NCBI GenBank assembly: GCA_017848855.1
Contig: JAFIHF010000008.1
Coordinates: 17,367 to 81,366 of the forward strand
Direction of reading: 5' to 3'
Source: Rhodanobacter denitrificans
Lineage (GTDB): Bacteria; Pseudomonadota; Gammaproteobacteria; Xanthomonadales; Rhodanobacteraceae
Length of the DNA: 64,000 bases
Part shown: piece by piece, positions 25,198 through 45,408 of the stretch
How positions within the stretch are numbered: the stretch's first letter is position 1
How the letters are laid out: each line of letters starts with the position of its first letter
Position numbers and translations under genes: made by a program
The notes under the pieces: generated by a model
Seen by the model: the letters and a program-made list of their open reading frames with translations, nothing else
Databases searched by the model: none
What the model was told of the DNA's origin: nothing

Positions 25198-26508
25198 ATG
25201 CTCGCCTACTACTTCCACCTCGGCCTGCGCAGCCTGCGCCGCAACCCCGCCCTCACCACGCTGATGGTGATGGCGGTCGGTTTCGGCGTGGCCGCGTCGA
25301 TGATCACGTACTCCGTGTTCCGCGCGGTGTCGGGCAATCCGATCCCGGACAAGTCGGCGCAGCTGTTCATCCCGCAGATCGACGGCTGGGGCCCGCAGCA
25401 GAACCAGAAGGGCGAGCCGGCGGAAGCGCTGACTTACAACGACGCGATGGCGCTGCTGCGCGCGCACGAGGCGAAGCGCCAGACCATGCTGTATCCGGTG
25501 CAACTCGCGGTGTTGCCGGACGGCAAGCGCGACCTGCCGCTGAACGCGAGCGGCTACGCCGTGGGTAGCGATTTCTTCGCCATGTTCGAGGTGCCGTTCC
25601 GCTACGGCGGCGGCTGGAGCCTGCAGGACGACGACGCGCGCGCCGCCGACGTGGTCATCAGCGGCGAGCTCAACCAGAAGCTGTTCGGCGGGGCCAACAG
25701 CGTGGGGCGCACGATCGACCTCGGTGGCCACGACTACCGCGTGGTGGGCGTCGCCAGCCACTGGAACCCGCGCCCGCGTTTCTACGACCTGTTCAGTACC
25801 AGCGGTTTCGCCGACGAGCCGGACTTCTACCTGCCGTTCGCCCGCGCGCTGGATCTGCACATGTACACCGGCGGCCGCAACAGCTGCCGCGGCGAGCTGA
25901 GCTTCACCAACTGGACGGACTACACGCAGAGCAACTGCGTGTGGATCACGCCGTGGGTGGAACTGGACACCCCCGCCGAAGTCGCGAGCTACCGCAGCTT
26001 CCTCACCCACTACGCCGCCGAGCAGCAGCGCGCCGGCCGCTTCAACTGGGCGCCGAACGTGCGCCTGCGCGACGTGGCGCAGTGGCTGGACCACGAGCGC
26101 GTGGTGCCGCCCGAAAGCCGCATCTCGCTGGCGGTGGCGCTGGGCTTCTTCCTGATCTGCCTGGTCAACACCATCGGCCTCTTGCTGGCGAAGTTCCTGC
26201 GCCGCAGCGGCGAAATCGGCGTGCGCCGCGCGCTGGGCGCCACGCGCCGGGAGATCTACACGCAATACCTGATCGAGGCGGGCACGGTGGGCCTGGCCGG
26301 CGGCGTGCTGGGCCTGCTGCTCACCGCGCTGGGCGTGGGCGGCGTGGGCGTGCTGTTCCCGCCGCAGATCGCGAAGCTGGCGCAGCTCGACGCCTCGCTG
26401 GTGGGGCTCACGCTGGCGGTGGCCATCGTCGCCACCGTGCTGGCGGCGTTCTATCCGGCCTGGCGCGCGGCGCACGTGCAGCCGGCCTGGCAATTGAAGT
26501 CGAGCTGA
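25198..26508 (+). CDS. FtsX/MacB-type ABC permease, A-type, pair 1
   Basis: 436 residues. TM1 is at about 17-40, then a large periplasmic MacB-like domain (SDFFAMFEVPFRYGGGWS, LNQKLFGGANSVGRTI) and three C-terminal helices (about 310-333, 358-385, 400-425). The cytoplasmic loop LLAKFLRRSGEIGVRRALGA is the coupling-helix region that contacts the ATPase. Two periplasmic Cys (about 229 and 247) probably form a disulfide. It ends QPAWQLKSS. It is partnered with the B-type gene 10 bp downstream. MacB-type permeases act by mechanotransmission and move substrates from the periplasm through an adaptor and outer-membrane channel. Confidence 0.88.
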   Translation: MLAYYFHLGLRSLRRNPALTTLMVMAVGFGVAASMITYSVFRAVSGNPIPDKSAQLFIPQIDGWGPQQNQKGEPAEALTYNDAMALLRAHEAKRQTMLYPVQLAVLPDGKRDLPLNASGYAVGSDFFAMFEVPFRYGGGWSLQDDDARAADVVISGELNQKLFGGANSVGRTIDLGGHDYRVVGVASHWNPRPRFYDLFSTSGFADEPDFYLPFARALDLHMYTGGRNSCRGELSFTNWTDYTQSNCVWITPWVELDTPAEVASYRSFLTHYAAEQQRAGRFNWAPNVRLRDVAQWLDHERVVPPESRISLAVALGFFLICLVNTIGLLLAKFLRRSGEIGVRRALGATRREIYTQYLIEAGTVGLAGGVLGLLLTALGVGGVGVLFPPQIAKLAQLDASLVGLTLAVAIVATVLAAFYPAWRAAHVQPAWQLKSS

Positions 26509-26518
26509 GGAGAGGACG

Positions 26519-27757
26519 ATGAACCTGCCCATCCGCCCCATCCTCGTCGCGCTGCGCCGGCACAAGGCGGGCACCGTGCTGATCGCGCTGCAGATCGCGC
26601 TGACCCTGGCCATCGTGTGCAACGCGCTGTTCATCATCCACGCGCGGCTGGCCAACCTGTCCGAAGCCAGCGGCGTGGACGAGCCCAACGTGTTCGTCAT
26701 CAAGAACCAGTGGGCGGCCGAGCGGCCCACGGCGCAGGTGGATGCGCAGGTGCAGGCCGACCTGCTCGCGCTGCGGCAATTGCCCGCCGTGCGCGACGCC
26801 GCACCGGCCAGCGGCTACCCGCTGCAGGGCGGCGGCTGGGACAACCTGGTCACGCTGACGCCCGACCAGACCCATCCGATCACCGATTCGGCGGTGTACA
26901 CCAGCGACGAGCATTTCATCGACACGCTCGGCGCGCGGCTGGTCGCGGGGCGCAACTTCCGCCCCGACGAAGTGATGGTGATGGGTACGCAGCAGTCGAT
27001 CACCCCGCCCACGGTGATCGTGACCCGCGCGCTGGCCGACAAGCTGTTCCCCGGCGGCCACGCGTTGGGCAAGAGCTTCTACGCGATGGGCACCACGCCC
27101 AGCACCATCGTCGGCATCGTCGACCCGCTGCACCGGCAGGGCGTGAGCCAGTGGAACAAGGCCTATGCCGGGCAGGCGCTGATCTGGCCGCTGCGTGCGG
27201 ACGATGCGCGCGGCATCTTCTACATCGTGCGCGCCAAGCCCGGCCAGCTCGCCGCCGCGATGCGCGAGGCGCCCAAGGCGCTGTATGCGCAGAGCCGCAT
27301 GCGCATCATCGATCCGAAGGACGGCGTGCAGGACTACGCCGCCATCCGCCACAAGGTCTACGACAGCGACCGCGGCATGGCGATCCTGATGGGCATCATC
27401 TGCGCCGTGCTGCTGGCGATCACCGCCGCGGGCATCGTCGGCCTCACCAGCTTCTGGGTCGGCCAGCGGCGCAAGCAGATCGGCGTGCGCCGCGCGCTGG
27501 GCGCGCGCCAGCGCGACATCCTCGCCTACTTCCTCACCGAGAACTTCCTGATCAGCGCGGCGGGCGTGCTGCTCGGCGTCGTGCTGGCGGTCGCCTTCAA
27601 CCTGTGGACGGTGACCCGCTTCGAGCTGGATCGCATGTCGCTGGCCTATGTGGGCGTCGGCGTGCTCGTGCTGTTGCTGCTGGGGCAGGGCGCGACGTTC
27701 GCGCCGGCGCTGCGCGCCTCGCGCGTGTCGCCGGTGGAGGCGACGCGCAGCGTGTGA
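26519..27757 (+). CDS. FtsX/MacB-type ABC permease, B-type, pair 1
   Basis: 412 residues. It is shorter than the A-type and starts with a cytoplasmic RRHKAGTVLIALQIALTLAI helix. The periplasmic domain carries TRALADKLFPGGHALGKSFY. The C-terminal FtsX part has ITAAGIVGLTSFWVGQRRKQ and IGVRRALGARQRDILAYFLTE. It ends VEATRSV, a tail shared in form by all seven B-type proteins. It probably forms a heterodimer with the preceding A-type protein. B1 and B2 are the most alike of the B-types by eye. Confidence 0.88.
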   Translation: MNLPIRPILVALRRHKAGTVLIALQIALTLAIVCNALFIIHARLANLSEASGVDEPNVFVIKNQWAAERPTAQVDAQVQADLLALRQLPAVRDAAPASGYPLQGGGWDNLVTLTPDQTHPITDSAVYTSDEHFIDTLGARLVAGRNFRPDEVMVMGTQQSITPPTVIVTRALADKLFPGGHALGKSFYAMGTTPSTIVGIVDPLHRQGVSQWNKAYAGQALIWPLRADDARGIFYIVRAKPGQLAAAMREAPKALYAQSRMRIIDPKDGVQDYAAIRHKVYDSDRGMAILMGIICAVLLAITAAGIVGLTSFWVGQRRKQIGVRRALGARQRDILAYFLTENFLISAAGVLLGVVLAVAFNLWTVTRFELDRMSLAYVGVGVLVLLLLGQGATFAPALRASRVSPVEATRSV

Positions 27758-27815
27758 CTGCTTTGCTCCCCTCTCCCGCAAGCGGGCGAGGGGAGACCAA
27801 TCACGGAGGCTTTGA

Positions 27816-29132
27816 ATGTTTGCCTACTACATGGAACTGGCCCTGCGCAGCCTGAAGCGCAGCCCCGGCCTCACCACGCTGATGGTGCTGGCGATCGGCT
27901 TCGGCGTGGCCGCCTCGATGACTTCGTGGTCGGTGTTCCGCGCGGTGTCGGGCGACCCGATCCCGTGGAAGTCCGCGAAGCTGTTCGTGCCGCAGATCGA
28001 CAACTGGGGATCGAACGGCCGCAGCAGCGACGGCGAGCCGCCGAACGCGATGGACTACGCCGATGCCATGGCGCTGATGCGCCAGCACCGCGCCAAGCTG
28101 CAGTCGGCGATGTACCAGATCTCGCCTTCGATCGTGCCCGCGGAAGCCTCCCGGCATCCGGTCAACGTCGGCGGGCATGCGGTGTACGGCGAGTTCTTCC
28201 CGATGCTGGACGTGCCGTTCAAGTACGGCAGCGGCTGGAGCGCCAGCGACGATGCCAACCGGGCGCAGGTGGTGGTGATCGGCAGCAAGCTCAACCAGAA
28301 GCTGTTCGGCGGCGCGAACAGCGTGGGCCGGAGTGTCAACATCGAGGGCCACGACTACCGCGTGGTGGGCGTGCTGGACCACTGGAACCCGCAGCCGCGC
28401 TACTACGACGTGGTCAACTCCGGCGGCTTCAACAGCCAGTCCGACGACGTGTTCCTGCCGTTCCAGACCGCCATCCAGGCGAACATCCAGAACGACGGCA
28501 ACACCAACTGCTACGCGGTGCCCAAGGAACCCGGCTTCGTCGGCCTGCAGCACTCCGAGTGCGTGTGGATCGCTTTCATGGTGGAGCTGGACGACGCCGC
28601 GGCGGTGAGCGCGTACCGCAGCTACCTCGATGGCTACGCGAAGGAACAGCAGCAGGCCGGTCGCTTCGGCTGGGCGCCGAACAACCGCCTGCGCGACCTG
28701 CCGGCCTGGCTGGACAACCAGCACGTGGTGCCCAGCGACACCAAGGTGTCGCTGCTGGTGGCGCTGGGCCTCTTGCTGGTGTGCCTGGTCAACACCATCG
28801 GCCTCTTGCTGGCGAAGTTCCTGCGCCGCAGCGGCGAGATCGGCGTGCGCCGCGCGCTGGGCGCGCCGCGCCGCGCGATCTACCTGCAATTCCTCACCGA
28901 GGCCGGCATGGTCGGCGCGGCCGGCGGCGTGCTCGGCCTGCTGCTTACCTGCGCCGGCGTGGCCAGCGTGGGCTGGGTGATGCCCAAGGACATCGCCAGC
29001 CTCGCGCGGCTCGACGTCTCGCTGCTGGTGCTGACCCTGCTGGTGGCGGTGCTCGCCACCATGCTGGCCGGCCTGTACCCCACCTGGCGCGCCTCGCGGG
29101 TGCAGCCGGCGTGGCAGCTCAAATCGAATTGA
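27816..29132 (+). CDS. FtsX/MacB-type ABC permease, A-type, pair 2
   Basis: 438 residues. Very close to A1 in the N-terminal helix, in LNQKLFGGANSVGR and in the C-terminal helices (SLLVALGLLLVCLVNTIGLLLAKFLRR), but the periplasmic domain differs more (ISPSIVPAEASRHPVNVGGH). Periplasmic Cys lie at about 231 and 248. It ends QPAWQLKSN. A palindrome (about 27770-27795) precedes it. The high similarity to A1 suggests pair 2 arose by a relatively recent duplication of pair 1. Confidence 0.88.
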   Translation: MFAYYMELALRSLKRSPGLTTLMVLAIGFGVAASMTSWSVFRAVSGDPIPWKSAKLFVPQIDNWGSNGRSSDGEPPNAMDYADAMALMRQHRAKLQSAMYQISPSIVPAEASRHPVNVGGHAVYGEFFPMLDVPFKYGSGWSASDDANRAQVVVIGSKLNQKLFGGANSVGRSVNIEGHDYRVVGVLDHWNPQPRYYDVVNSGGFNSQSDDVFLPFQTAIQANIQNDGNTNCYAVPKEPGFVGLQHSECVWIAFMVELDDAAAVSAYRSYLDGYAKEQQQAGRFGWAPNNRLRDLPAWLDNQHVVPSDTKVSLLVALGLLLVCLVNTIGLLLAKFLRRSGEIGVRRALGAPRRAIYLQFLTEAGMVGAAGGVLGLLLTCAGVASVGWVMPKDIASLARLDVSLLVLTLLVAVLATMLAGLYPTWRASRVQPAWQLKSN

Positions 29133-29328: not shown

Positions 29329-30588
29329 ATGAAACTCCACCCCATGATTGCGGCATTGCGCAAGCACAAGGCGGGCGTGGTGCTGATCGCGCTGCAGATC
29401 GCGCTGACCCTGGCCATCGTCTGCAACGCGATCTTCATCATCGGCCAGCGCATCAGCCGGGTGAACCGCCCCACCGGGCTGGACGAGAGCAACCTGTTCC
29501 TGGTCAGCCAGCAATGGGTGGGCGCGCCCAGCGCCGATTCCGCCGATGGCGTGGCCAAGCTCGACGCGATGCAGAAGGAGGATCTCGTCGCCTTGCGCAA
29601 CCTGCCCAGCGTGGCGTCGGTGGCGCCGATCAATTCGCTGCCGCTGCTGAATTCTTCTTGGATCGGTTCGGTGTCGCTCAAACCCGATGCCAAGTTCAGC
29701 GACAAGGCAGGCAACGCGCGCACCGCGTACTACTTCACCGACGAGCAGGCAATGTCGACACTGGGCGTGAAACTGGTGGCTGGCCGCTGGTTCAATGCCG
29801 GCGACGTGCAGCATCAGGGTTTCCGCGACAATCCCCCGCATCCTGTCGTCATCGTCACCAAAGCGATGGCGGACAAGCTGTTCCCAGCGGGCGATGCGGT
29901 GGGCAAGGCGGTCTACGCCGACGGCAGCAGCTCGCCCAGCACCATCGTCGGCGTGGTCGCGCGCCTGCAGGTGCCCGCCACCGGCAGCTGGGTCAACGAC
30001 TTCGCGTGGAACGCCACCCTGATCCCCACCCGGTTGAACAGCAATGGATCGCGCTACGCGGTGCGCGCCAAGCCGGGCCAGCTGGAGGCAGCGATGAAGG
30101 CCGTGGCGCCCACGCTGTACCGGGTGAACCCGCTGCGCGTGCTCGACGACGACAGCGTCAAGTCGTTCGCCGACATCCGCGCCAAGGCCTACCGCGCCGA
30201 CGTGGGCATGGCGATCCTGATGGGTGTGATCTGCCTCGTGCTGCTCAGCGTCACCGCCGCCGGTATCGTGGGCCTTACCAGCTTCTGGGTGGGCCAGCGC
30301 CACCGCCAGATCGGCGTGCGCCGCGCGCTGGGCGCGCGCAAGGTCGACATCCTGCACTACTTCCAGCTGGAGAACCTGCTGATCGCGGGCAGCGGCGCGC
30401 TGATCGGCATCGGCCTGGCGCTCGCCCTCAACCTGTGGCTGATGCGCCACTACGAGATGGACCGCCTGCCGCTGCCCTACACGTTGATCGGCGTGCTGGC
30501 CGTGCTGGTGCTCGGCCAGTGCGCGGTGTTCGTGCCCGCGCGGCGCGCCTCCAACGTGCCGCCGGTGACCGCCACGCGCGCGGTGTGA
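29329..30588 (+). CDS. FtsX/MacB-type ABC permease, B-type, pair 2
   Basis: 419 residues. N-terminal KHKAGVVLIALQIALTLAIV helix almost identical to B1. The periplasmic domain has VTKAMADKLFPAGDAVGKAVY and the C-terminal part VGLTSFWVGQRHRQIGVRRA. It ends VPPVTATRAV. It is separated from its A-type partner by an inserted repeat, so coupling of translation is lost here. The ribosome site GAGGAG lies 8 bp before the ATG. Confidence 0.88.
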   Translation: MKLHPMIAALRKHKAGVVLIALQIALTLAIVCNAIFIIGQRISRVNRPTGLDESNLFLVSQQWVGAPSADSADGVAKLDAMQKEDLVALRNLPSVASVAPINSLPLLNSSWIGSVSLKPDAKFSDKAGNARTAYYFTDEQAMSTLGVKLVAGRWFNAGDVQHQGFRDNPPHPVVIVTKAMADKLFPAGDAVGKAVYADGSSSPSTIVGVVARLQVPATGSWVNDFAWNATLIPTRLNSNGSRYAVRAKPGQLEAAMKAVAPTLYRVNPLRVLDDDSVKSFADIRAKAYRADVGMAILMGVICLVLLSVTAAGIVGLTSFWVGQRHRQIGVRRALGARKVDILHYFQLENLLIAGSGALIGIGLALALNLWLMRHYEMDRLPLPYTLIGVLAVLVLGQCAVFVPARRASNVPPVTATRAV

Positions 30589-30597: not shown

Positions 30598-30716
30598 CCC
30601 TCTCCCCCGGCTGCGCCGGGGGAGAGGGCAGGGTGAGGGGGGCTTCTGCACTGCTCGCGTGGCGAAGAGCGCCCCCTCACCCCGACCCTCTCCCCCAACG
30701 AAGTTGGGGGAGAGGG
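30598..30716. repeat. Composite palindromic repeat between permease pairs 2 and 3
   Basis: A 14-bp stem CCCTCTCCCCCGGC with its complement at 30598-30628, a spacer, and a 14-bp stem CCCTCTCCCCCAAC / GTTGGGGGAGAGGG at 30686-30716. The same arrangement occurs before pair 1 (25065-25173), suggesting a mobile composite unit or a duplication product. Confidence 0.7.
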
Positions 30717-30742: not shown

Positions 30743-32068
30743 ATGTTTGCTTACTACCTCGACCTCGCCCTGCGCAGCCTGAAGCGCAACCGCGTGCTCA
30801 CCGCGCTGATGGTGCTGGCGATCGCCGTGGGCATCGGTGCCAGCATGACCACGCTGACGGTGATGCACATCCTGTCCGGCGATCCCATGCCGGGCAAAAG
30901 CGCGCGGCTGTATTTCCCGCAGCTCGATCCCGCCCCGGCCGACTGGAAAACGCCGTTGCATCCGCGACCGATGATGGACTACCGCTCGGCGATGGATCTT
31001 TGGAGCGCGCATCGTGCCGATCGGCAGGCGCTGGTAGTGCAAAGCCCGGTGAAGGTCCTTGCACCGGGTACGGGGCGCCCGCCATTGATGCTGATGATGA
31101 TGTCGACGACGACGGATTTCTTCCCGATGTTCGACGTGCCGTTTGCGTACGGTGGCGCGTGGACGCCCGCGGACGAGGCCGGTCGTGCGCATGTGGCGGT
31201 GATATCGAGCGACCTCAACGACAGACTGTTCGGCGGTGGCAACAGCGTAGGCAGGACCTTGCATCTCAGGGACGCCGACGTGCGCATCGTCGGCGTGTTG
31301 AAACCGTGGCGTCCGACGCCCCTGTTCTACGATCCCGTGGGTGGCATCACCGGCAGCATGACGCCTACGGGCTTTTATGGCAGGCCCGAGGACGTCTTCA
31401 TGCCGTTCCTCGCCGGCCTCGACGTCAACGACGGCAACTTCTTCCAGTACACCTGCTGGGGCAGCGGGCCGGCGAAACCCGGGCATTTGCAGGACGCGCC
31501 ATGCCTCTGGCTCGCCTTGTGGGTGGAGCTGGACAGCCCCGCCAAGGCAGCCGCGTATCGCTCGTTCCTCGACGGTTACGTGCGGCAGCAGAAGGCACTG
31601 GGGCGTTTCGCGCACATCGACACGGACATGCCGGACCTGATGCAGCAGCTGGACCGGGCGCACGCAATACCGGCGAACGTCCGGCTGCAGACCTGGCTGG
31701 CGCTCTCCTTCCTGGCGATCTGCCTGTTCAACATGGTGGGTCTGTTGCTGGCCAAGTTCCTTCAGCGCAGCGGCGAGATCGGCGTGCGCCGCGCCTTGGG
31801 CGCGTCGCGGCCTGCGGTGTTCGCGCAATGCCTGGCCGAGGCCGGATTGATCGGTCTGATCGGTGGCGTGGGTGGATGGTTGTTGACGCTCGCCGGGCTG
31901 TGGCTGGTGCGCCGCCAGCAGTTGCCGTACTCCGACCTCGTGCATATGGACATGCCGATGTTCGCGAGCACGTTCGTGCTGGCGGTCGCGGCCAGCTTGA
32001 TCGCAGGGTTGTTGCCGGCATTGCGTGCGAGCAGGGTTGCGCCAGCGCTGCAGTTGAAGACCTTGTGA
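30743..32068 (+). CDS. FtsX/MacB-type ABC permease, A-type, pair 3
   Basis: 441 residues. N-terminus MFAYYLDLALRSLKRNRVLTALMVLAIAVGIG. The periplasmic domain has TDFFPMFDVPFAYGGAWT and LNDRLFGGGNSVGRTLHLRD, and Cys at about 237 and 253. The C-terminal loop is LLAKFLQRSGEIGVRRALGASRPAVFAQCLAE and it ends VAPALQLKTL. The periplasmic region is richer in Met (LMLMMMSTTT) and its codon use is a little less GC-biased than in A1 and A2, suggesting a different history. Confidence 0.88.
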   Translation: MFAYYLDLALRSLKRNRVLTALMVLAIAVGIGASMTTLTVMHILSGDPMPGKSARLYFPQLDPAPADWKTPLHPRPMMDYRSAMDLWSAHRADRQALVVQSPVKVLAPGTGRPPLMLMMMSTTTDFFPMFDVPFAYGGAWTPADEAGRAHVAVISSDLNDRLFGGGNSVGRTLHLRDADVRIVGVLKPWRPTPLFYDPVGGITGSMTPTGFYGRPEDVFMPFLAGLDVNDGNFFQYTCWGSGPAKPGHLQDAPCLWLALWVELDSPAKAAAYRSFLDGYVRQQKALGRFAHIDTDMPDLMQQLDRAHAIPANVRLQTWLALSFLAICLFNMVGLLLAKFLQRSGEIGVRRALGASRPAVFAQCLAEAGLIGLIGGVGGWLLTLAGLWLVRRQQLPYSDLVHMDMPMFASTFVLAVAASLIAGLLPALRASRVAPALQLKTL

Positions 32069-32076
32069 GGACAATC

Positions 32077-33297
32077 ATGCAGATCAAGCCCATCTTATCG
32101 GCTCTGAAAAAGCACAGGCTCGCGACCTTCTTGATCGCTATGGAAATCGCGCTTGCCTGCGCGGTGCTGTGCAACGCGGTGTTCATGATCGCCAATCGCC
32201 TGACGGCGATGAACCTCGACAGCGGCGTGGACGAGTCTTCGCTGGGTGCGATCACGGTGACTGGATTCGACCCCGCGCAAGCTACCGATTTGAACGCGCG
32301 GATGGTGGCGGGCCTGCGCGCGGTGCCCGGCGTCGAGTCCGCGCAGGTCATCTCCTCCGTGCCGTTCGGCGCGCAGTCGCTCGTGGCCGGCATCAGCCTC
32401 GACCCGTCCGGCAAGAAAACACCGGCCGTGGTCCAGTTCTACCAAGGTGCCCCCGGAACCATCGACGCGCTGGGCTTGAAACTGGAGGCAGGGCGGCTGC
32501 CCGCGACGAGCGACTACCAGCCCTTGTCGGGGCAGGAGTATTTCCCAGCCGTGTCGCCGGTGCTGGTCACCCGCGCGCTGGCCGAGCATCTGTGGCCTGG
32601 CCAGAATCCGCTGGGCCGCGAGTTCTGGATGGCCAAATGGCAATTCCGCGTCATCGGAGTGCTATCCCACCTTTCGGTGTCCCAGTACACCGAGTACGCC
32701 GAACAGGGCGCGGAGTGGACCGTGTTCGTGCCAACCCTGCCGGGTGGCCAGTTGGCGGGCACCTACCTGATCCGCGCAAAGCCGCAGGACATCGAGAGCG
32801 TCATGACGACGGCGCGTGCCGCAGTGGCGAAGATCGCACCGGAAGTGGTGCTGGATCACGAGAACAGCCATTCGGTTTCCTTCCTGCGCGAGCGTTTCTT
32901 TCGGACCGATCGCGCCATGGCCGGCATGCTGGTGGGCGTGATCGTGGCGCTGCTCGGCGTCACCGCACTGGGCATCGTGGGCCTGGCCAGCTTCTGGGTG
33001 GCGCAGCGGCGCAAGCAGATCGGCATCCGCCGCGCGATCGGCGCCACGCGCGGCGACATCCTGCGCTACTTCCAGACCGAGAACTTCCTGATCGTCACGT
33101 TCGGCATCGCGCTCGGCATGGCGCTGGCCTTCGTGCTCAACGCGGTGCTGATGAAGTTCTACGAACTGCCGCACCTGCCGCTGTACTACCTGCCGGTCGG
33201 CGCACTGGCGCTGTGGGCGCTGGGCCAACTCGCCGTACTCGGCCCCGCCCTGCGCGCCGCGAACGTGCCGCCGGTAGTGGCAACCCGCAGCGTGTGA
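32077..33297 (+). CDS. FtsX/MacB-type ABC permease, B-type, pair 3
   Basis: 406 residues. LKKHRLATFLIAMEIALACAVLCNAVFM forms TM1. The periplasmic domain is shorter than in B1. The C-terminal part FWVAQRRKQIGIRRAIGATRGDILRYFQTENFLIV is typical of B3, B5 and B6. It ends VPPVVATRSV. The last 93 bp of the gene plus the following 46 bp are identical to the end of B4, a sign of gene conversion or recent duplication. Confidence 0.88.
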   Translation: MQIKPILSALKKHRLATFLIAMEIALACAVLCNAVFMIANRLTAMNLDSGVDESSLGAITVTGFDPAQATDLNARMVAGLRAVPGVESAQVISSVPFGAQSLVAGISLDPSGKKTPAVVQFYQGAPGTIDALGLKLEAGRLPATSDYQPLSGQEYFPAVSPVLVTRALAEHLWPGQNPLGREFWMAKWQFRVIGVLSHLSVSQYTEYAEQGAEWTVFVPTLPGGQLAGTYLIRAKPQDIESVMTTARAAVAKIAPEVVLDHENSHSVSFLRERFFRTDRAMAGMLVGVIVALLGVTALGIVGLASFWVAQRRKQIGIRRAIGATRGDILRYFQTENFLIVTFGIALGMALAFVLNAVLMKFYELPHLPLYYLPVGALALWALGQLAVLGPALRAANVPPVVATRSV

Positions 33298-33510
33298 CGC
33301 TTAAGCCCTCCCCTTCAAGGGGAGGGTTGGGTGGGGATGGTTGCGAGGGGTGGCGTTGGGTGGGGATGGTTGTTCTGCGGAGTGTTGGGAGGGGATGGTG
33401 TGGTGGCATCGCGCACTGGCCGAACCCTCTCCCCCCCCAACCCCTCTCCCGCAAGCGGGCGAGGGGAGTGATGAAGGGCCTCTCCCGCGGGGGAGTTCAA
33501 TCAAGGAGGG
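33298..33510. repeat. G-rich and palindromic intergenic repeat after pair 3
   Basis: It holds a hairpin CCTCCCCTT/AAGGGGAGG at about 33307-33325, overlapping a four-tract G-run (GGGG-A-GGG-TT-GGG-T-GGGG, 33319-33336), followed by repeats of GTTGGGTGGGGATGGTT and a CCTCTCCCGC palindrome. Its first 46 bp equal those after pair 4, and the last 40 bp before the next ribosome site (33470-33508) differ by one base from 36182-36220. Confidence 0.7.
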
Positions 33511-37541: not shown

Positions 37542-38765
37542 ATGCACTTCCGTCACATCCTGAGCGCGCTGGGCCGCCACCGGATCGCCGTTGGCCTGCT
37601 GGTGCTGGAGATCGCCTTTTCCTGCGCGGTGGTCTGCAACGCGCTGTTCCTCATCGGCAGCCGGCTGGAGCGCATGCAGCGGCCCACCGGCGTGGACGAG
37701 GCGCACCTGGTCGAGATGTTCATCGGCAGCGTTACGCGCGGCTCGGCGGACGCGGTCATGGCGCAGACGCGCACCGACCTGGCCGCGCTGCGGGCCATTC
37801 CCGGTGTCGCCAATGCCTCCGTCGTCAACCAGACGCTGTTCGGCAACTCGCTCAATGCCAGCGGCGTCAGCCTCAGTGACGAGGCGAAGGCGCCGAGCAT
37901 CCCGGTCACGCAGTACATGGGCGATGCGCAACTGGCCGACACCCTGGGCCTGAAACTGGTGGATGGCCAGTGGTTCAAGCCGGACGAATTCATCACCGAG
38001 GAGCAGCTTGAAAGCGGCCACTCCGGCCTGCCCGTGATCATCACCAAGGCGTTGGCAGACCATTTCTTTCCGGGCCAGTCGGCGGTCGGCAAGACCATCC
38101 ATGCCTTCGGCACCAACCGCGTGGTGGGGGTGCTGGATCGGCTGGTGCAGCCGCACGACTCCGGCCCTGCGGAGTATTACGGCTACGCCATGCTGTTTCC
38201 GGTGAACCTGCCGTACACGGAAGGCGCCTACGTGATCCGGGTGAGGGATGCGGCGCAGCGCGCCGCGGTGCTCCAGGGCGCATTGCGCGCGCTGAAGGCC
38301 GACGGCCCGCTGCGGCTGATCTCGCCGAAGTACGCCTTCACGCTGGAGTCGCAGCGCGACAAGTACTACCGCAACGACCGCGCGATGGCCTGGATGCTGG
38401 TGGGCGTGTGCCTGCTGCTGCTGGTCGTCACGGCGGTGGGCATCGTGGGCCTGACCAGCTTCTGGGTGGCGCAGCGGCGCCGGCAGATCGGCATCCGCCG
38501 CGCGATTGGAGCCACGCGCGGCGACATCCTGCGCTACTTCCAGACCGAGAATTTTCTGATCGCGACGCTTGGCATCGCCCTGGGCATGGTGCTGGCCTTC
38601 GGCCTCAACCTGCTGTTGATGCGGCACTACGAACTGGGGCGTTTGCCGGGCTACTACTTCCCAGTGGGCGCCATCGTGCTGTGGCTGCTCGGGCAACTCG
38701 CCGTACTCGGCCCCGCGCTGCGCGCGGCGGCAGTGCCGCCGGTGGTGGCGACACGCAGCGTGTGA
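37542..38765 (+). CDS. FtsX/MacB-type ABC permease, B-type, pair 5
   Basis: 407 residues. LGRHRIAVGLLVLEIAFSCAVVCNALFL forms TM1. The periplasmic domain has ITKALADHFFPGQSAVGKTIH. C-terminal part VTAVGIVGLTSFWVAQRRRQ and IGIRRAIGATRGDILRYFQTEN, nearly the same as B3. It ends VPPVVATRSV. The 3' end resembles B3 and B4 but is not identical, so any conversion there is older. Confidence 0.88.
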   Translation: MHFRHILSALGRHRIAVGLLVLEIAFSCAVVCNALFLIGSRLERMQRPTGVDEAHLVEMFIGSVTRGSADAVMAQTRTDLAALRAIPGVANASVVNQTLFGNSLNASGVSLSDEAKAPSIPVTQYMGDAQLADTLGLKLVDGQWFKPDEFITEEQLESGHSGLPVIITKALADHFFPGQSAVGKTIHAFGTNRVVGVLDRLVQPHDSGPAEYYGYAMLFPVNLPYTEGAYVIRVRDAAQRAAVLQGALRALKADGPLRLISPKYAFTLESQRDKYYRNDRAMAWMLVGVCLLLLVVTAVGIVGLTSFWVAQRRRQIGIRRAIGATRGDILRYFQTENFLIATLGIALGMVLAFGLNLLLMRHYELGRLPGYYFPVGAIVLWLLGQLAVLGPALRAAAVPPVVATRSV

Positions 38766-38946
38766 CGTACAAGCCCTCCCCTTCAAGGGGAGGGTTGGGT
38801 GGGGATGGTTGCGAGGCGTGACGTTGGGTGGGGATGGTTGTTCTGCGGATGGCGTTGGGGTGGGGATGGTTGCGGTGGATGGAGTTGGGTGGGGATGGCG
38901 TAGCGGCATCGCCGCGCGCCGGTCAGCGAAGGTGGAGGTCGATTCC
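38766..38946. repeat. G-rich repeat array after pair 5
   Basis: Opens with the CCTCCCCTT hairpin and a G-tract run (38787-38804). Four copies of a TTGGGTGGGGATGGTTG-like unit then follow at irregular spacing, to about 38900. The reverse complement of the same unit lies on the other side of the broken DUF559 gene (39309-39392), so that gene is bracketed by inverted repeats. Confidence 0.7.
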
Positions 38947-39424
38947 GTGCAAGGACAAACCAACCCGTCGATTCTCCGGCCGAAGCTGCAACGCCGGTTG
39001 CGAAATGCCCCGACCGAGGCGGAGCGTGTGCTGTGGCGGCATTTGCGCGCGCCAGCTGGATGGATGCAAGTTCCGCCGCCAGCATCCGTTCGGCGACTTC
39101 ATCCTGGACTTCGCATGCCTGGAACGCAGGCTCGTGATCGAGCTGGACGGCGGCCAGCATGCAGAGCGGGCGCGGGCGGATGCCTTGCGCACGGCTTTTC
39201 TGGAGCGCGCCGGATTCCGGGTGCTGCGGTTCTGGAACAACCAGGTATTCGAGGACATGGAGGGCATGCTCGAGGCGATCCGGCAGGCGTTGATGATGAG
39301 CGGCGGCAACCATCCCCACCCCAATCCTCCCCGGCACCACCATCCCCACCTCGGCGCCACCTATAGCAACCATCCCCACCCCAACCCTCCCCTTGAAGGG
39401 GAGGGAGAAGGCAAGGAGGACTGA
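38947..39424 (+). pseudogene. Frameshifted DUF559 (Vsr-like) endonuclease gene
   Basis: The first part starts at a GTG and reads QTNPSILRPKLQRRLRNAPT, then EAERVLWRHLRA. The frame then breaks in a GCGCGCGCC run at about 39045-39053. In the next frame it continues RQLDGCKFRRQHPFGDFILD, FACLERRLVIELDGGQHAER and VLRFWNNQVFEDMEGMLEAI, all hallmarks of DUF559, a small PD-(D/E)XK nuclease related to Vsr. Restoring two bases (or removing one) gives an intact family-length protein. The tail NHPHPNPP comes from translating the flanking repeat. It sits between permease pairs 5 and 6 and interrupts the array. Confidence 0.82.
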
Positions 39425-39425: not shown

Positions 39426-40739
39426 ATGTTCGGCTACTACCTCGACCTTGCGCTGCGCAGCCTGAAGCGCACGCCCATCCTCACCGGCCTGATGGTGCTC
39501 GCCATCGGCCTGGGCATCGGCGCGGCCATGACCATGCTGACGGTGCTGCACGTGATGACCGACGATCCGCTGCCGGGACGCAGCGCGCACTTGTACACGC
39601 CGCATCTCGATCCCTTGCCGCTCGACTACAAGCAGGGCGGCGACGGCCCCGACCCCACCGACGACCTCACCTGGCCCGATGCGATGGCGCTGCTCAAGGC
39701 GCAGCGCGCCACGCGGCAGGCGGCGATGGCGGGCGGCTCGTTGTTGCTGCGGCCGGGTCGTGCCGACCTGCGTCCGTTCTATGTGGATGGCCGCTACGCC
39801 ACGGCGGATTTCTTCGCGCTGTTCGGCGTGCCGTTCCTGCAAGGCAGCGGCTGGAGCGCCGCGGACGACGCGGCCGGCGCGCAGGTGGTGGTGCTGGTCG
39901 ACGCGCTGGCGCGCAAGTTGTTCGGCACGGGCAACGCGGTGGGCCGGATGGTGCGCCTGGGCGAGCACGATTACCGCGTGATCGGCGTGACGCGCGATTG
40001 GCAGCCTGCGCCGATGTTCTACGTCGACGCTTCGGCCAAGCGTTACAGCGATGGCGACATGTTCTTTCTGCCGCTGGCTACCGCGGTGGATCGGAAGCTC
40101 GACGTCAACGGCAACTTCAGCAGTTGGGGCGAGGATCGTGCCGAGACGCGCATGGTCAGCCCGACCACGACCTGGTTGCAGTTCTGGGCGCAGTTGGACA
40201 CACCGGCACAAGCGGCGGCGTATCGCCAATACCTGGTCGATTACTCCGCGCAGCAGAAGGCGTTGGGCCGTTTCCAGCGTCCGCCGGCGAACGCGAAGCT
40301 GTACGGCCTGATGGGTTGGCTGGCGCACGAAAACCTGGTGCCCGGCGACGTGCGCCTGCAACTGTGGCTGGCGCTGGGCTTCCTGTTCGTGTGCATGCTC
40401 AACATCGTGGCCTTGCTGCTGGCGAAGTTTTTGCGCCGCAGCGGCGAGATCAGCGTGCGCCGCGCGCTGGGCGCGAAGCGGCGCGACATCTTCGTGCAGC
40501 TCGGCATCGAGTCGGCGCTGATCGGCGTGGCCGGCGGCGCGCTGGGCCTGGCCATCGCGCAGCTCGGCCTGTGGAGCATCCGCCAGCGCCCGGACGACTA
40601 CGCCAGGCTGGCGCAGATGGATATGCCGATGCTGCTCGGAACCTTGGCGCTCGCCGTGCTCGCCAGCGTGCTGGCCGGCCTGCTGCCGGCGTGGCGCGCG
40701 TGCCGGGTGCCGCCGGCGCTGCAACTCAAGATGCTTTGA
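39426..40739 (+). CDS. FtsX/MacB-type ABC permease, A-type, pair 6 (lacks the Cys pair)
   Basis: 437 residues. MFGYYLDLALRSLKRTPILTGLMVLAIGLGIG at the start, periplasmic ADFFALFGVPFLQGSGWSAADD and LARKLFGTGNAVGRMVRLG. Where the other A-types have two Cys, this one has NGNFSSWGED ... SPTTTWLQF, so both are replaced. C-terminal loop LLAKFLRRSGEISVRRALGAKRRDIFVQL; it ends VPPALQLKML. Its ATG follows two bases after the stop of the frameshifted DUF559 gene. Confidence 0.87.
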   Translation: MFGYYLDLALRSLKRTPILTGLMVLAIGLGIGAAMTMLTVLHVMTDDPLPGRSAHLYTPHLDPLPLDYKQGGDGPDPTDDLTWPDAMALLKAQRATRQAAMAGGSLLLRPGRADLRPFYVDGRYATADFFALFGVPFLQGSGWSAADDAAGAQVVVLVDALARKLFGTGNAVGRMVRLGEHDYRVIGVTRDWQPAPMFYVDASAKRYSDGDMFFLPLATAVDRKLDVNGNFSSWGEDRAETRMVSPTTTWLQFWAQLDTPAQAAAYRQYLVDYSAQQKALGRFQRPPANAKLYGLMGWLAHENLVPGDVRLQLWLALGFLFVCMLNIVALLLAKFLRRSGEISVRRALGAKRRDIFVQLGIESALIGVAGGALGLAIAQLGLWSIRQRPDDYARLAQMDMPMLLGTLALAVLASVLAGLLPAWRACRVPPALQLKML

Positions 40740-40749
40740 CGGAGGCGGC

Positions 40750-42003
40750 ATGGAACTTCGACCGATCCTTTCCACCCTGCGCCACCACAAGCTCACCGCC
40801 AGCCTGCTGACGCTGCAGGTGGCCTTCACCTGCGCCATCGTCTGCAACGTGGTGTTCATGATCGCGAACCGCGTGCACCAGATCAGCCTGCCGAGCGGGC
40901 TTGCCGAGAGCGAGTTGTCGATGCTGAAAATCGCCGGGATCGACCCGGGGGAAAATTCGCAGGCGCGGCATGCCGCGGATCTGGCCGCGCTGCGGGCGAT
41001 CCCCGGCGTGCAGGCGGCAGTGGCGGTGGACAGCCTGCCGCTGGGCCGCAACGACTCCAGCTATGGCACCTGCGCCAACCAGCAAGCGTGGAACCGCGCC
41101 ATGGCGGCGCGTTCGCTCAATGGCGTGCAAGGCTGCCTGAACCCCAGCGTCTACAGCGGTTCGCCCGGCGAGCTGGAGGCGTTGGGACTGCACCTGGTTG
41201 CCGGGCGCGATTTCCAACCGGATGACTATGTGCCGGCAAAGCCCGGCTACGTCGCGGCCAATGTGCCCAGCGCCATCGTCACCCGCAGCCTGGCAGCGAA
41301 GCTGTATCCGGGACGGGACGCGCTGGGGCAGAGCCTCTACATGGGCGGGCGTCCGCCCATGCGCATCGTCGGCGTGGTGGAAAACCTGCTGCGCCCGCGC
41401 CTGCGCGAGCCGGGCGTGAATCAATACAGCGTCTTGTTGCCCTCGATCCCCGGCGAACCGTCGGTGACCTACGTGCTGCGCAGCGCACCGCAGGATCGGG
41501 CCCGCGTGCTCGGGTCGGCGGTTGCCGCGTTGACGCGGCTCGACCCCAACCGCCTGATACCGCCGGATGGCGTGCGCACCTACACCCAGATCCGCCACGC
41601 CTACTTCCAGCGCGACACCACCATGATCGGCCTGCTGATCGCCTCGGCGCTGGGCCTCTTGTTCGTCACCGCGCTGGGCATCGCCGGGCTGGCGAATTTC
41701 TGGGTGCAGCAGCGCACGCGCAGCATCGGCATACGTCGTGCGATTGGAGCGACCCGCGGCGATATCCTGCGCTACTTCCAGGCCGAGAACTTCCTCATCG
41801 TCACGGTCGGCATCGTGCTCGGCGTGCTGCTCGCCATCGTGCTGAACCTGCTGCTGATGACGCATTACGAACTGCCGCGCCTGCCGCTGTGGTACCTGCC
41901 CATCGGCGCGGCGGTGCTGTGGGCGCTGGGGCAACTCGCGGTGCTCTCGCCGGCGCTGCGCGCCTCGCATGTGCCGCCGGTGGTGGCGACGAGGAGCGTG
42001 TGA
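40750..42003 (+). CDS. FtsX/MacB-type ABC permease, B-type, pair 6
   Basis: 417 residues. LRHHKLTASLLTLQVAFTCAIVCNVVFMI is TM1. The periplasmic domain is longer than in the other B-types and has its own pair of Cys (YGTCANQQ and QGCLNPS). C-terminal part VTALGIAGLANFWVQQRTRSIGIRRAIGATRGDILRYFQAEN. It ends VPPVVATRSV. It is followed by a convergent toxin-antitoxin operon. Confidence 0.88.
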   Translation: MELRPILSTLRHHKLTASLLTLQVAFTCAIVCNVVFMIANRVHQISLPSGLAESELSMLKIAGIDPGENSQARHAADLAALRAIPGVQAAVAVDSLPLGRNDSSYGTCANQQAWNRAMAARSLNGVQGCLNPSVYSGSPGELEALGLHLVAGRDFQPDDYVPAKPGYVAANVPSAIVTRSLAAKLYPGRDALGQSLYMGGRPPMRIVGVVENLLRPRLREPGVNQYSVLLPSIPGEPSVTYVLRSAPQDRARVLGSAVAALTRLDPNRLIPPDGVRTYTQIRHAYFQRDTTMIGLLIASALGLLFVTALGIAGLANFWVQQRTRSIGIRRAIGATRGDILRYFQAENFLIVTVGIVLGVLLAIVLNLLLMTHYELPRLPLWYLPIGAAVLWALGQLAVLSPALRASHVPPVVATRSV

Positions 42004-42062: not shown

Positions 42063-42365
42063 TTACGGGCTTTCGCTGACGCGATGCCGCCAGTATCCCG
42101 GTTGGCGGTGGCAGTGCATCACCGCAAGGATCAGCACATCGTCGGATTCGACGGTGTAAAGCACGGCATAAGGAAAAACGCGCGGGAGCCGGCGACGGAT
42201 GTCCTGCTCCAGCAGTGCGCCCGCCAGCGGCTGTTTGACGATTTCGCCGATGGCGCTCTCCATGCAGGCGATGAAACGCGTGGCGAGATTCGGACTGATC
42301 GACGCGTAGTGGAGCGCCGCCTCCTCGTACTCCGCCAAGGCTTCCGGGTGGAACGCAAAGCTCAT
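42063..42365 (-). CDS. RelE/ParE-family toxin
   Basis: 100 residues. FHPEALAEYEEAALHYASIS at the start, then LARFI-type helices and RRRLPRVFPYAVLYTVESDDVLILAVMHCHRQPGYW, the ParE-like beta-sheet ending in the conserved HxxRxPxYW. It overlaps the upstream antitoxin gene by 4 bp. ParE-type toxins poison gyrase and RelE-type toxins cut mRNA; the family cannot be narrowed here. It lies on the minus strand, between permease pairs 6 and 7. Confidence 0.85.
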   Translation of the reverse strand: MSFAFHPEALAEYEEAALHYASISPNLATRFIACMESAIGEIVKQPLAGALLEQDIRRRLPRVFPYAVLYTVESDDVLILAVMHCHRQPGYWRHRVSESP

Positions 42366-42595
42366 CGCGCGAGGCGGTCGCGCACGCGCTGCAAGGCCTC
42401 GTTGCCGGGGATGGGCTGGATATCGCCGCGGCGCAGCTCGTCGCGGCGTCGCACGGCTTCGGCCGTCCACGCAATCTGGATTTCGTCGTCCTGCCCGGGG
42501 GCGAGGCTTTCCACCAACCGGTCGGCCAGTTGCGCGCGGGCTTCGCTGGGTAGCGACAGCGCGGCTTGCGTGAGTTGTTCGATGCTGATGGCCAT
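42362..42595 (-). CDS. Addiction-module antitoxin (CHP02574-type)
   Basis: 77 residues. ALSLPSEARAQLADRLVESLAP is the signature helix of the small antitoxins paired with RelE/ParE toxins, followed by IQIAWTAEAVRRRDELRRGDIQPIPG. It precedes and overlaps the toxin. It is the second gene of a three-gene minus-strand set beginning at 42784. Confidence 0.82.
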   Translation of the reverse strand: MAISIEQLTQAALSLPSEARAQLADRLVESLAPGQDDEIQIAWTAEAVRRRDELRRGDIQPIPGNEALQRVRDRLAR

Positions 42596-42604
42596 GGGAC
42601 AGAC

Positions 42605-42784: not shown

Positions 42785-42842
42785 GGCGTGCTCCGGTTCG
42801 GGAATCCATCTTACTTCAATGCCTTGGGCGAGGGAGTTCTGA

Positions 42843-44162
42843 ATGTTCGACTACTACCTGCGCCTCGCCCTGCGCCGCTGCCGGCAGAACCTGGCGATGG
42901 TGGGCCTCTTGGTGCTGACCATGGCCATCGGCATCGCCGCGACGATGACGGCGATGACGATCTTCGGCGCGCTTGCCGGCGATCCGCTGCCGGGCATCAG
43001 CCCGCACCTTTACGTGGCGACGATGGATGCGCGCGAGGCGGTGGACAAGGACAACCCCGACTACAAGCAACCGGACAGCTGGCTCAAGCTCGGCGACGCC
43101 AAGGCGCTGGTGGATGCGCACCGCGCGCCGCAGCAACTGGCGTTGGCGCAGAGCCTGACCACGATGGACAGTCCCGACGGCAAGCACAGCGAACAGGCCT
43201 GGGGCTTCATGGCCTACGGCGAACCGCTGGGCATGCTGGGTGTGCCATTGCGCTTCGGTCGGCCGTGGACGGCGCAGGAGCTGGCGGCGCGTGCGCCGGT
43301 GGTGGTGATCGACAGCGATCTGGCGCAGAAGCTGTTCGGCACCGCAGACGCGGTGGGCCGCAGCGTGCTGCTGGGTGGCAAGCCGTTTCGCGTGGTTGGC
43401 GTCACAGTGCCGTGGAAGCCGCACACGGTGTTCCTCGACCTGCAGCGCAACCAGGGCAACCCGCAGGGCAGCAACGACGAGTTCTTCGTGCCTGCGGAGG
43501 CGGCGCTGGATGCGGGCGTGGGGCCGTTCACCTCGGGCGAGTGCGGCAAGGGGGCGCCAGTCATCGGCTTCCAGTCGGCGGCGGTACAACATTGCCGCTG
43601 GCTGGAAGTGTGGTCGCGGCTGGACACGCCGGCGCAGGTAGCGGACTGGCGGCAATTCCTCGCCAACTACGCCGATGCGCAGCGCGCGGCGGGCCGTTTC
43701 GTCTATCCGCCGCAGCCGAAGCTCTACGGCGCGCGCGCATGGATGACGCTGAATCACGTGGTGCCCGACGACGTGCGCCTGAACCTGATGCTGGCCGGCG
43801 CGTTCCTGCTGCTGTGCATGGTCAACGTGGCGGGCCTCCTGGCCGCGCGCTTCCTGCGCCGGCAGGCGGACGTGGCGATCCGCCGCGCGCTGGGCGCGTC
43901 CAAGCGCACGGTGTTCGCGCAGCACCTGGTGGAGACCGGCATCCTCGGCCTCGCCGGCGGCGTGCTGGCCTTGCCGCTGACCTGGCTGGGCCTGTGGATC
44001 GTGCGCCTGCAGCCGGTGAGCTATGCGGAGGCGGCGAAGTTCAGCCCCGGCGTGTTCGGTGCGCTGCTGCTGTTTTCGCTCATCGTGGGCCTGCTGGTGG
44101 GCGTGTTGCCCGCATGGCGCGTGTGCCGGCAGCCGCCGGCCCTGCAGATCAAGGTGGCTTGA
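42843..44162 (+). CDS. FtsX/MacB-type ABC permease, A-type, pair 7 (most diverged)
   Basis: 439 residues. N-terminus MFDYYLRLALRRCRQNLAMVGLLVLTMAIGIA; the Cys in the first loop and LTMAIG differ from A1-A6. Periplasmic LAQKLFGTADAVGRSVLLGG and Cys at about 233 and 250. C-terminal loop AARFLRRQADVAIRRALGASKRTVFAQHLVE lacks the SGEIGVRRA form, so ATPase coupling may differ. It ends QPPALQIKVA. Partner gene 4 bp downstream. Confidence 0.87.
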   Translation: MFDYYLRLALRRCRQNLAMVGLLVLTMAIGIAATMTAMTIFGALAGDPLPGISPHLYVATMDAREAVDKDNPDYKQPDSWLKLGDAKALVDAHRAPQQLALAQSLTTMDSPDGKHSEQAWGFMAYGEPLGMLGVPLRFGRPWTAQELAARAPVVVIDSDLAQKLFGTADAVGRSVLLGGKPFRVVGVTVPWKPHTVFLDLQRNQGNPQGSNDEFFVPAEAALDAGVGPFTSGECGKGAPVIGFQSAAVQHCRWLEVWSRLDTPAQVADWRQFLANYADAQRAAGRFVYPPQPKLYGARAWMTLNHVVPDDVRLNLMLAGAFLLLCMVNVAGLLAARFLRRQADVAIRRALGASKRTVFAQHLVETGILGLAGGVLALPLTWLGLWIVRLQPVSYAEAAKFSPGVFGALLLFSLIVGLLVGVLPAWRVCRQPPALQIKVA

Positions 44163-44166
44163 GGAG

Positions 44167-45408
44167 ATGGCCGTGCGACATATCGTGAATCCCTTGTTGC
44201 GCCATCGCCTGATGCCGCTGCTGGTCGTGCTGCAGGTGGCGCTGGCCTGCGCCATCGCCTGCAACGCACTGTTCCTGCTGCAGCAGAAGCTGGTGCCCAT
44301 CCTCGCGCCTGATGGTATCGGCACTCCGGACCGGCTGGTGATGGCCTGGAATATCGCGTCGCGCGGCAAGCCCTGGCCGACCGGCCGTCTGCTGGAAGTG
44401 CGCCAGGCGTTGCGGGCATTGCCGGGCGTGAGCGCAGCCAGCGTGGCCGGTTCGCTGCCGATGGAGACCAATGCGCAGATGAACGGCGAGGCGATTGCGG
44501 AGGACACACACGCCAAGGCCGGCGATGCGGCTGTCTACATCGGTGCCGACCTGGTCGATACGCTGGGCTTGCACCTGGTCGCCGGGCGCGATTTCAGCGC
44601 CGAAGAGCAATCCATCCAGTACCACGGCATGGGCATCAACGATTCCGGCCCGGCCATCATCACCCGCGCGCTGGCGAACCGCCTGTTTCCCGATGGGCAT
44701 GCGCTGGGCAAGGTGATACGCATCGGTGCAGCTGCCGATGCCGGGCGCCGCACCGTGGTCGGTGTGGTCGCGCACCTGATGAGCAACAAGTTCGACGCCG
44801 ACGGCGGCAATGTGGACTACACCATGCTGTTTCCCGGCGTGCCGGGCAATTGGCCGATGCCGGTGTTCGCGGTGCGCGTGGCGCCGGGCGCGGACGTGGA
44901 ACGCGTGCGCAAGGCGGTCGATGCCACCATCCACCGCGAACTGGGCAATGAAATGATCCGGGGCTTCGAGCCGAGCATCCAGATGTACGGCGACATGCGT
45001 GCGCATGCCCTGGCGAAGTTCAAGGCCGCCGTATGGCTGCTCGCCGGCGTCAGCGTGGTGGTGCTGATCGTCACCCTCGCCGGCATCATGGGCCTCACCG
45101 GCTACTGGGTGCAGCAGCGCACGCGGCAAATCGGCATCCGCCGTGCGCTGGGCGCGCGCCGCCGCCACATCCTGCGCGAGCTGCAACTGGAAAACCTGCT
45201 GGTGGTCGGCGTCGGCGTGCTGCTCGGGCTGGCCTGCGCCTACGCGATCAACCTGTGGCTGATGCGGCACTACGAACTCACCCGCCTGCCGTGGATCTAC
45301 CTGCCCGTCGGCGCGGCGCTGATGCTGCTGCTCGGCCAGCTCGCCGTGCTGTCGCCCGCGCTGCGCGCCTCGCGCGTGCCGCCGGTGGTGGCGACGCGGA
45401 GCGTGTGA
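44167..45408 (+). CDS. FtsX/MacB-type ABC permease, B-type, pair 7
   Basis: 413 residues. LLRHRLMPLLVVLQVALACAIACNALFLLQ is TM1. Periplasmic ITRALANRLFPDGHALGKVIRIG. C-terminal part VTLAGIMGLTGYWVQQRTRQ and IGIRRALGARRRHILRELQLENLLVV. It ends VPPVVATRSV. It closes the permease array. A GTG six bases after the chosen ATG is an alternative start. Confidence 0.88.
   Translation: MAVRHIVNPLLRHRLMPLLVVLQVALACAIACNALFLLQQKLVPILAPDGIGTPDRLVMAWNIASRGKPWPTGRLLEVRQALRALPGVSAASVAGSLPMETNAQMNGEAIAEDTHAKAGDAAVYIGADLVDTLGLHLVAGRDFSAEEQSIQYHGMGINDSGPAIITRALANRLFPDGHALGKVIRIGAAADAGRRTVVGVVAHLMSNKFDADGGNVDYTMLFPGVPGNWPMPVFAVRVAPGADVERVRKAVDATIHRELGNEMIRGFEPSIQMYGDMRAHALAKFKAAVWLLAGVSVVVLIVTLAGIMGLTGYWVQQRTRQIGIRRALGARRRHILRELQLENLLVVGVGVLLGLACAYAINLWLMRHYELTRLPWIYLPVGAALMLLLGQLAVLSPALRASRVPPVVATRSV

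Follow-up and report, generated by a model that had tools for sequence, protein, structure and literature searches.

MacB-type pumps are usually viewed as machines in which one pump has one permease, whereas in the locus described here a single ATPase gene precedes fourteen permease genes. The locus lies in the window, a stretch of 64,000 nucleotides (assembly GCA_017848855.1, contig JAFIHF010000008.1, positions 17,367 to 81,366 of the forward strand) from the 3.49 Mb genome (G000) of the soil bacterium Rhodanobacter denitrificans. It covers positions 22835–49465 on the + strand and encodes, in this order, a periplasmic adaptor, an ATP-binding cassette (ABC) ATPase, seven pairs of permeases, each made of an A-type and a B-type protein, an NtrC-type response regulator, and a histidine kinase. 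Taken as a whole, the locus and its relatives are best explained as what is probably a sigma-54-controlled MacB-type export system, having many heads (the A-B pairs), a shared ATPase and adaptor, and a regulon of small membrane peptides.

As for the permeases, all fourteen reading frames are open and alternate strictly as A, B, in agreement with a preliminary description of the window made from its letters alone. All are on the + strand: A1 (25198–26508, 436 residues) and B1 (26519–27757, 412); A2 (27816–29132, 438) and B2 (29329–30588, 419, with its start corrected to 29329); A3 (30743–32068, 441) and B3 (32077–33297, 406); A4 (33516–34826, 436) and B4 (34823–36040, 405), which overlap by 4 bp; A5 (36228–37517, 429) and B5 (37542–38765, 407); A6 (39426–40739, 437) and B6 (40750–42003, 417); and A7 (42843–44162, 439), the most divergent, with B7 (44167–45408, 413). 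The lengths (429–441 residues for A, 405–419 for B) match those given before, as do the gaps within pairs (10, 196, 8, −4, 24, 10, and 4 bp), with pair 2 as the exception already claimed. The terminal motifs stood only in part: M[FL]xYY opens all seven A proteins, LKS is found near the end of three of them (A1, A2, and A5), and PPVVATRSV closes five of the seven B proteins, the exceptions being SPVEATRSV in B1 and PPVTATRAV in B2. The paralogues in the window are 35–59% identical; their coupling loops (80% identity in A, 75% in B) are far more alike than their periplasmic domains (39% and 29%), as had been reported, and over all loci compared the mean within-locus values are close to these, at 41% (periplasmic) and 76% (loop) for A and at 30% and 76% for B, from 748 comparisons in each case.

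Regarding their class, the four permeases scanned (A1, B1, A7, and B7) carry MacB_PCD and FtsX domains above the Pfam cut-offs, and the succession of a first transmembrane helix (TM1), a periplasmic domain, and TM2–4 with a coupling helix is that of the type VII (MacB-type) permeases. Folds were predicted for single chains of B5 and A5 (predicted local distance difference test, pLDDT, 94.5 and 89.1), and MacB (5gko) was the best Foldseek match of both, with TM-scores of 0.68 and 0.67, respectively. The adaptor (22835–24106, +) is HlyD/MacA/DarC-like, with HlyD_D23 and HlyD_3 above cut-off; it reaches 135.5 bits with the RND_mfp subfamily model (cut-off 94.9) and misses the MacA equivalog (60 vs 342 bits). 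The ATPase (24335–25054, +), present in the array as a single copy, has the ABC_tran domain, and the closest NCBIfam model is DarD.

The locus shares parts with several known systems. It resembles MacAB-TolC in the fold of A and B, in the MacB_PCD and FtsX domains, and in an adaptor of the MacA/RND_mfp kind; it differs in having many permease pairs per ATPase, and MacB proper was ruled out because the ATPase gene is separate and the permeases are A-B couples, whereas MacB has a fused ATPase and is a homodimer. The acidobacterial duplicated orphan permeases (ADOP) form large sets of paralogues without ATPases of their own; A1 and A7 match the N-terminal half of the ADOP model TIGR03434 (5/7 to 399/401) and B1 and B7 its C-terminal half (411/412 to 801), but here the two genes are unfused, the ATPase and the adaptor are within the locus, and scores of 165–181 bits against a cut-off of 622 speak against membership. 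For the ATPase, the closest curated model is that of the darobactin exporter DarBCD, whose adaptor model is matched as well; both scores stay under the equivalog cut-offs (DarD 256 of 375 bits, DarC 88 of 450 bits); the array differs in its many permease pairs, and darobactin genes were not looked for. LolCDE, in which, according to excerpts of two reports (PMC5985334, PMC8277102), the ATPase is likewise separate and the permease is a heterodimer of this class, differs by releasing lipoproteins with one pair; the LolD model gave 219 bits against 308, and LolC and LolE also remained under their equivalog cut-offs.

The evidence that A and B work as couples comes from 510 distinct pairs of 180 loci, obtained by removing truncated pairs first and identical A-B sequences afterward; the locus counts of this and of the divergence, promoter, and long-array analyses include some species twice. 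Within loci, the distance matrix of A agrees with that of B (median r 0.92 in 58 loci with at least four pairs; permutation p ≤ 0.05 in 45 of the 58), and in other loci with at least three pairs the best B match lies beside the best A match in 417 of 419 cases, compared with 98.6 expected. Direct-coupling analysis, with an effective number of 311, placed the profile columns A321-B30, A307-B41, and A324-B26 at ranks 1, 13, and 22 of 142,200; all three connect TM2 of A to TM1 of B with a constant index sum, the pattern that an antiparallel contact produces, and the A26-B301 coupling is the mirror case. The two bands hold 3 + 1 of the top 50 couplings (0.09 expected each), or 3 + 0 when only multi-pair loci are used, and they are lost upon swapping partners within loci: in three trials the first band had 0 of the top 100, and the second had 1 in one trial. 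Two points weigh on the other side, namely that the bands were defined only after viewing the top list, in which the other couplings are scattered, and that shuffled runs have both a larger effective number and higher top z values (7.8–8.2 vs 6.8–7.4). Together, co-inheritance and the couplings lost by shuffling support the heterodimers of A with B that had been proposed: neighbors would pair through the expected TM1-TM2 interface.

The ATPase is widespread in the family: a match at E ≤ 1e-90 was present in 209 of its 233 genomes and in 25 of 26 genera, with identities of 88–97% among the matches listed and of 73–81% in further genera. In the loci fetched from relatives, the genes follow the order adaptor-ATPase-(A-B)n-regulator-kinase, and n ranges from 1 to at least 12. 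The layout is not due to chance because, in the first 40 relative loci, the ATPase is followed by A-B genes in all 40 and by at least two pairs in 39; the adaptor is present in 39. The sole locus of these 40 without an adaptor in view, L058, has two ATPase copies that face each other; in L058/L130 (G197) they lie 110 bp apart, with equal scores and permeases with each, which could be an assembly artefact. Eighteen merged long arrays have 6–12 pairs, with equal numbers of A and B in every one and the regulator closing 17 of them, while 102 further closed loci have one pair in 54 cases, two in 7, three in 13, four in 15, five in 10, and six in 3. Of 196 pieces with any permease hit, 128 have more than two, and strict alternation fails in nine of these; one of the nine holds only an A and two B, and one genome is counted twice among them. 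Split or remnant permease genes occur in L060 (split A), L064 (B remnant), L148, and L208, and the other departures are due to an extra B. The ATPase gene of L124 (G206), at 2501–3204, is in two frames, due to a frameshift or a sequencing error.

Outside the family, the closed loci of Roseateles, Massilia, Duganella, Solimonas, Lysobacter, and Arenimonas all have one pair, as does that of Pseudoalteromonas xiamenensis, and at least three pairs were seen in four Stenotrophomonas and in one of two Luteimonas. A class-wide draw found the A type at E ≤ 1e-50 in 6 of 229 genomes, the window's own included; no more than seven candidates were scored in each genome, and A counts were not used as totals. 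The single-pair loci of Roseateles, Massilia, Solimonas, Lysobacter, and Pseudoalteromonas have the same gene order as the array, differing in n, and judging from this distribution the single-pair locus looks like the older, likely ancestral form, with the array as a derived and variable state. Position 1 was considered as the ancestral pair, with an unclear outcome: the pair most similar to single-pair loci is more often that at position 3 than any other (42/96), and the mean identities are close.

As for its control, a sigma-54 −24/−12 promoter, TGGCACGCAGCTTGCT (22775–22790, +), is an exact match and ends 44 bp 5′ of the adaptor start; no further sigma-54 site exists in the other gaps of the window, so that the single promoter assumed earlier is supported for the only type looked for, sigma-54. 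The regulator (46102–47559, +; start uncertain) has a receiver, a sigma-54 activation domain, and a Fis helix-turn-helix, the kinase (48080–49465, +) has HAMP and HATPase_c domains, and with this promoter the locus has the make-up of an NtrC-type sigma-54 circuit. Among 175 loci, 143 have a sigma-54 site at most 250 bp upstream of the adaptor operon, compared with 1% of shuffled sequences, and 114 of 144 sigma-54 promoter regions have the palindrome TGTCCGCGGACA upstream. In the window this palindrome is at 22697–22708 (C17:40063-40074); its conservation makes it the likely enhancer (upstream activating sequence) of the NtrC-type regulator. The window genome contains only four copies: two, at the array and at a peptide locus, are followed by a sigma-54 site, and the other two (L249, L250) have none near and may be there by chance.

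The combination of palindrome and sigma-54 site extends beyond the array. It was found in 12 of 15 genomes of the same genus, in 183 of 230 across the family, and in 15 of 30 named genomes, and the reversed pattern occurred in none of the 15 and in one of the 230; the single-pair-locus genomes searched have 0–1 such sites each. Downstream genes were read at 54 sites, 25 from the same-genus search and 29 from named genomes: 25 sites precede adaptor operons, 22 peptides, four solitary A-B pairs, one a gene for a TolC-type outer-membrane efflux protein (G484), and two (L263 minus strand, L316) have no clear target. The genus g2 (G005, G015, G016) has four or five of these sites per genome and no peptide of the family, so that further regulon members are to be expected there.

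The solitary pairs, found in G202 (L276), G487 (L322/L344), G484 (L324/L346), and G489 (L327/L345), bear on the motor. That of G202 has neither an ABC ATPase nor an adaptor of the array kind in the surrounding 29 kb, and, because solitary heads lack an ABC ATPase in view, sharing of the ATPase in trans is the simplest reading. The claim that one ATPase would serve many pairs has in this way gained strength and is quite probable. Regarding other ATPases of the genome, which could have matched particular pairs, those related to the array's and placed beside other FtsX-type permeases have permeases of their own; the next-closest is 57% identical to the array ATPase. Conservation of the ATPase as proof of sharing was dropped since its divergence relative to the adaptor, compared at matched regulator identity, differs little and inconsistently between multi-pair and single-pair loci (0.36 vs 0.42, 0.29 vs 0.32, and, in the closest bin, 0.32 vs 0.28).

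The G202 solitary pair is orthologous to pair 5 of the window (82/78% identical for A/B) and similar to array pairs of five other same-genus genomes (A 79–84%, B 75–85%), while the array of G202 itself, ninth pair included, reaches at most 55/50% and shows no pair-5 lineage. The simplest reading is that an array unit moved out; lateral arrival is another. Relocation is only one reading because four other same-genus arrays (G197, G201, G205, G207) also have no pair-5 lineage. This and three further points count against solitary heads as remote units of the array: three of the four were viewed over only 1.5 kb upstream and less than 1 kb downstream; the palindrome lies about 22 bp nearer to the sigma-54 site than usual at those of G484 and G489; and the G202 pair adjoins an operon for a major facilitator superfamily (MFS) pump, a HlyD-type adaptor, and an outer-membrane factor (L276 11084–15464, −; G202:C33), from which it could borrow partners.

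The peptides behind the same elements share the pattern MK-x-E-xxML-xx-LF-x-AC-xx-VC..., have 28–76 residues, and often come as two in tandem; most have a two-cysteine tail (C-x8-CP or similar), and the tails vary between tandem copies. The set comprises 51 distinct open reading frames (ORFs), including a nested start and an interrupted copy of 24 residues. In each of the 30 best-scoring loci a sigma-54 site lies at −57 to −63, and in 29 of them the palindrome lies at −136 to −142. The family was found in 139 of 230 family genomes and 17 of 26 genera, and in 0 of 209 other gammaproteobacteria sampled; four peptides compared with Pfam and NCBIfam gave no match of weight (best E 0.046). Of the four peptide matches in the window genome, two are parts of a single interrupted gene; here the second peptide gene is broken by an insertion (L248 1640–2355, G000:C42), and a further match to model positions 1–30, with an internal stop, is probably of the 28-residue type (G000:C45:13826-13915).

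Regarding the mechanism, one ATPase dimer and one periplasmic adaptor would drive many dedicated A-B heterodimers, each A binding its neighbor B by TM1-TM2 contacts. Both would offer highly conserved coupling loops to the common ATPase, and their periplasmic domains, which diverge, would face the adaptor and the load, with a TolC-type duct completing the pump. Each pair may, as suggested before, have a substrate of its own. The kinase and the NtrC-type regulator would act on the palindromic enhancers at the array, at the solitary pairs, at the peptides, and at the one tolC-type gene. The load that the heads pass from the outer face of the inner membrane to the duct would be the peptides, or else products that are anchored or processed together with them. 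In MacAB-TolC, an excerpt of PMC5985334 has substrates entering from the periplasm between MacB and MacA; such an entry agrees with peptides that lie exposed on the periplasmic side of the inner membrane. A cargo role for the peptides is a tentative proposal, whose standing was lowered somewhat since four array-bearing genera have no peptides. The full picture, a hub-and-heads machine in which one ATPase, one adaptor, and one TolC duct serve up to 12 or more heads, in the array and remote, that handle peptides and are gained, lost, and moved like cassettes, is possible but still doubtful.

Several observations count against peptide cargo. Some peptides stop right after the hydrophobic stretch, at 28 residues, which is odd for a load. 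No peptide was found in g2, g11, g18, and g24, although G015, G002, G092, G126, and G215 carry 2–4 pairs, whereas G080 has one pair yet two peptides, and G017 has one peptide without a close ATPase. In 47 multi-pair genomes, peptide and pair numbers are not correlated (rho 0.06; −0.07 in a 41-genome version without the single-pair genera and seven other genomes); adding the single-pair genera raises rho to 0.55 (64 genomes), a value that kinship alone may explain. A rule of one peptide per pair was not borne out, and one head per peptide of the family is disfavored, because the numbers do not match in multi-pair genomes. Nor was the family found in g4, g5, g19, g22, and g25, from which only single-pair loci were fetched (one g4 locus has an extra B).

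The same data feed the main rival, in which the peptides act on the pump or the kinase as small membrane partners or regulators, or simply belong with the pump to an envelope-stress regulon; AcrZ is such a partner of AcrB. This alternative is a serious one, if itself somewhat doubtful. In its favor, conservation is highest in the first 27 residues, which include the membrane stretch (65% identity vs 45% for the rest) and after which some copies end, and the lack of correlation with pair number in multi-pair genomes also speaks for it. Peptides can also precede other genes: a 28-residue one stands before a beta-lactamase-family gene (L341), a 52-residue one before an M3 peptidase gene, and in L274 and L275 a start similar to that of the L341 beta-lactamase-family gene follows 28-residue peptides. 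The two-cysteine tail of most copies, however, exceeds what a bare membrane partner needs, and its variation between tandem copies points the same way.

Less probably, the pairs serve chiefly for sensing or as mechanical devices, in the manner of FtsX or BceAB, and not as exporters. FtsX and BceB are indeed type VII relatives, and nearly all loci that were read to their end include a two-component system; a sensor is however hard to reconcile with the MacA/DarC-like adaptor of nearly all loci (L058 being the one of the first 40 with none in view) and with the TolC-type gene that has the same promoter elements in one genome.

A multidrug pump that was simply amplified, giving redundant heads without division of labor, is about equally unlikely. 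MacB is a known drug exporter, as stated in part of PMC5985334, and the adjacent pair is the closest paralogue in 219 of 294 cases (115.5 expected), as amplification would produce. Against it, the copies are divergent, the most alike couple within any locus being 74.5% identical, and several lineages keep reciprocal best partners across many of 96 multi-pair loci: at least 74, 54, 55, and 78 for pairs 1, 2, 3, and 5, and at least 9, 18, and 12 for pairs 4, 6, and 7. These counts are lower bounds since many loci were viewed over 20 kb. Such partners being frequent for the former pairs and rare for the latter, the heads seem to comprise a shared core and a quickly changing set.

Finally, free mixing of A and B into up to n × n heterodimers, the part of the proposed combinatorial set that did not hold, is very unlikely because the couples are inherited together and interface couplings were seen for neighbors only, even though the coupling loops are much alike and, in four genomes, an extra B without its own A lies about 110 bp behind a B (L107, L134/L223, L207, L214), which also speaks against strict couples.

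The array of the window is not seamless, as its gaps contain a DUF559 ORF and a ParE-type toxin-antitoxin module. The DUF559 (restriction-endonuclease-like) ORF lies between pairs 5 and 6 (38828–39424, +) and is flanked by inverted repeats; genes for a ParE-type toxin and its antitoxin (Pfam ParE_toxin, Unstab_antitox) lie between pairs 6 and 7 (42066–42595, −), and a Phd/YefM antitoxin with a PIN-domain toxin occupies the gap between the array and the regulator (45445–46145, +). Such toxin-antitoxin modules, within or behind a tandem array, may make it harder for the array to be deleted. The inter-unit gaps at 25060–25180, 30598–30716, 33306–33466, 36049–36177, and 38774–39405 hold C-rich hairpin repeats, CCCTCTCCCCC / CCCTCCCCTTCAAGGGG. 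Paralogous adaptor-ATPase-A-B-regulator-kinase loci, with an ATPase 57% identical, exist in the window genome (L011, G000:C19), where about one pair and a remnant are present, and in G206 (L126), which has three pairs; arrays seem to arise in the paralogous locus too.

Sharing of one motor among several membrane units has precedents among importers. Group II energy-coupling factor (ECF) transporters have one motor in common for several membrane units. Likewise, an excerpt of PMC4519317 describes MsmK as one ATPase serving several membrane units of importers. Both differ from the array in being importers, of other ABC classes and with other folds. Type VII permeases, the adaptor, the ATPase, and the sigma-54 circuit are of known kinds; neither the shared-motor layout with many heads, nor solitary heads behind the same elements, nor the peptide family was found in the open-licence literature searched.

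In conclusion, if this reading is true, the motor and the connector of the MacB class can be a shared platform, as in the ECF importers. With species ranging from 1 to 12 heads, and with a defined two-component circuit, the system offers a natural assay for the role of each head, and the peptides that follow the same promoter elements give a first concrete lead to the load or to a partner. If the heads move like cassettes, each species would have its own repertoire.

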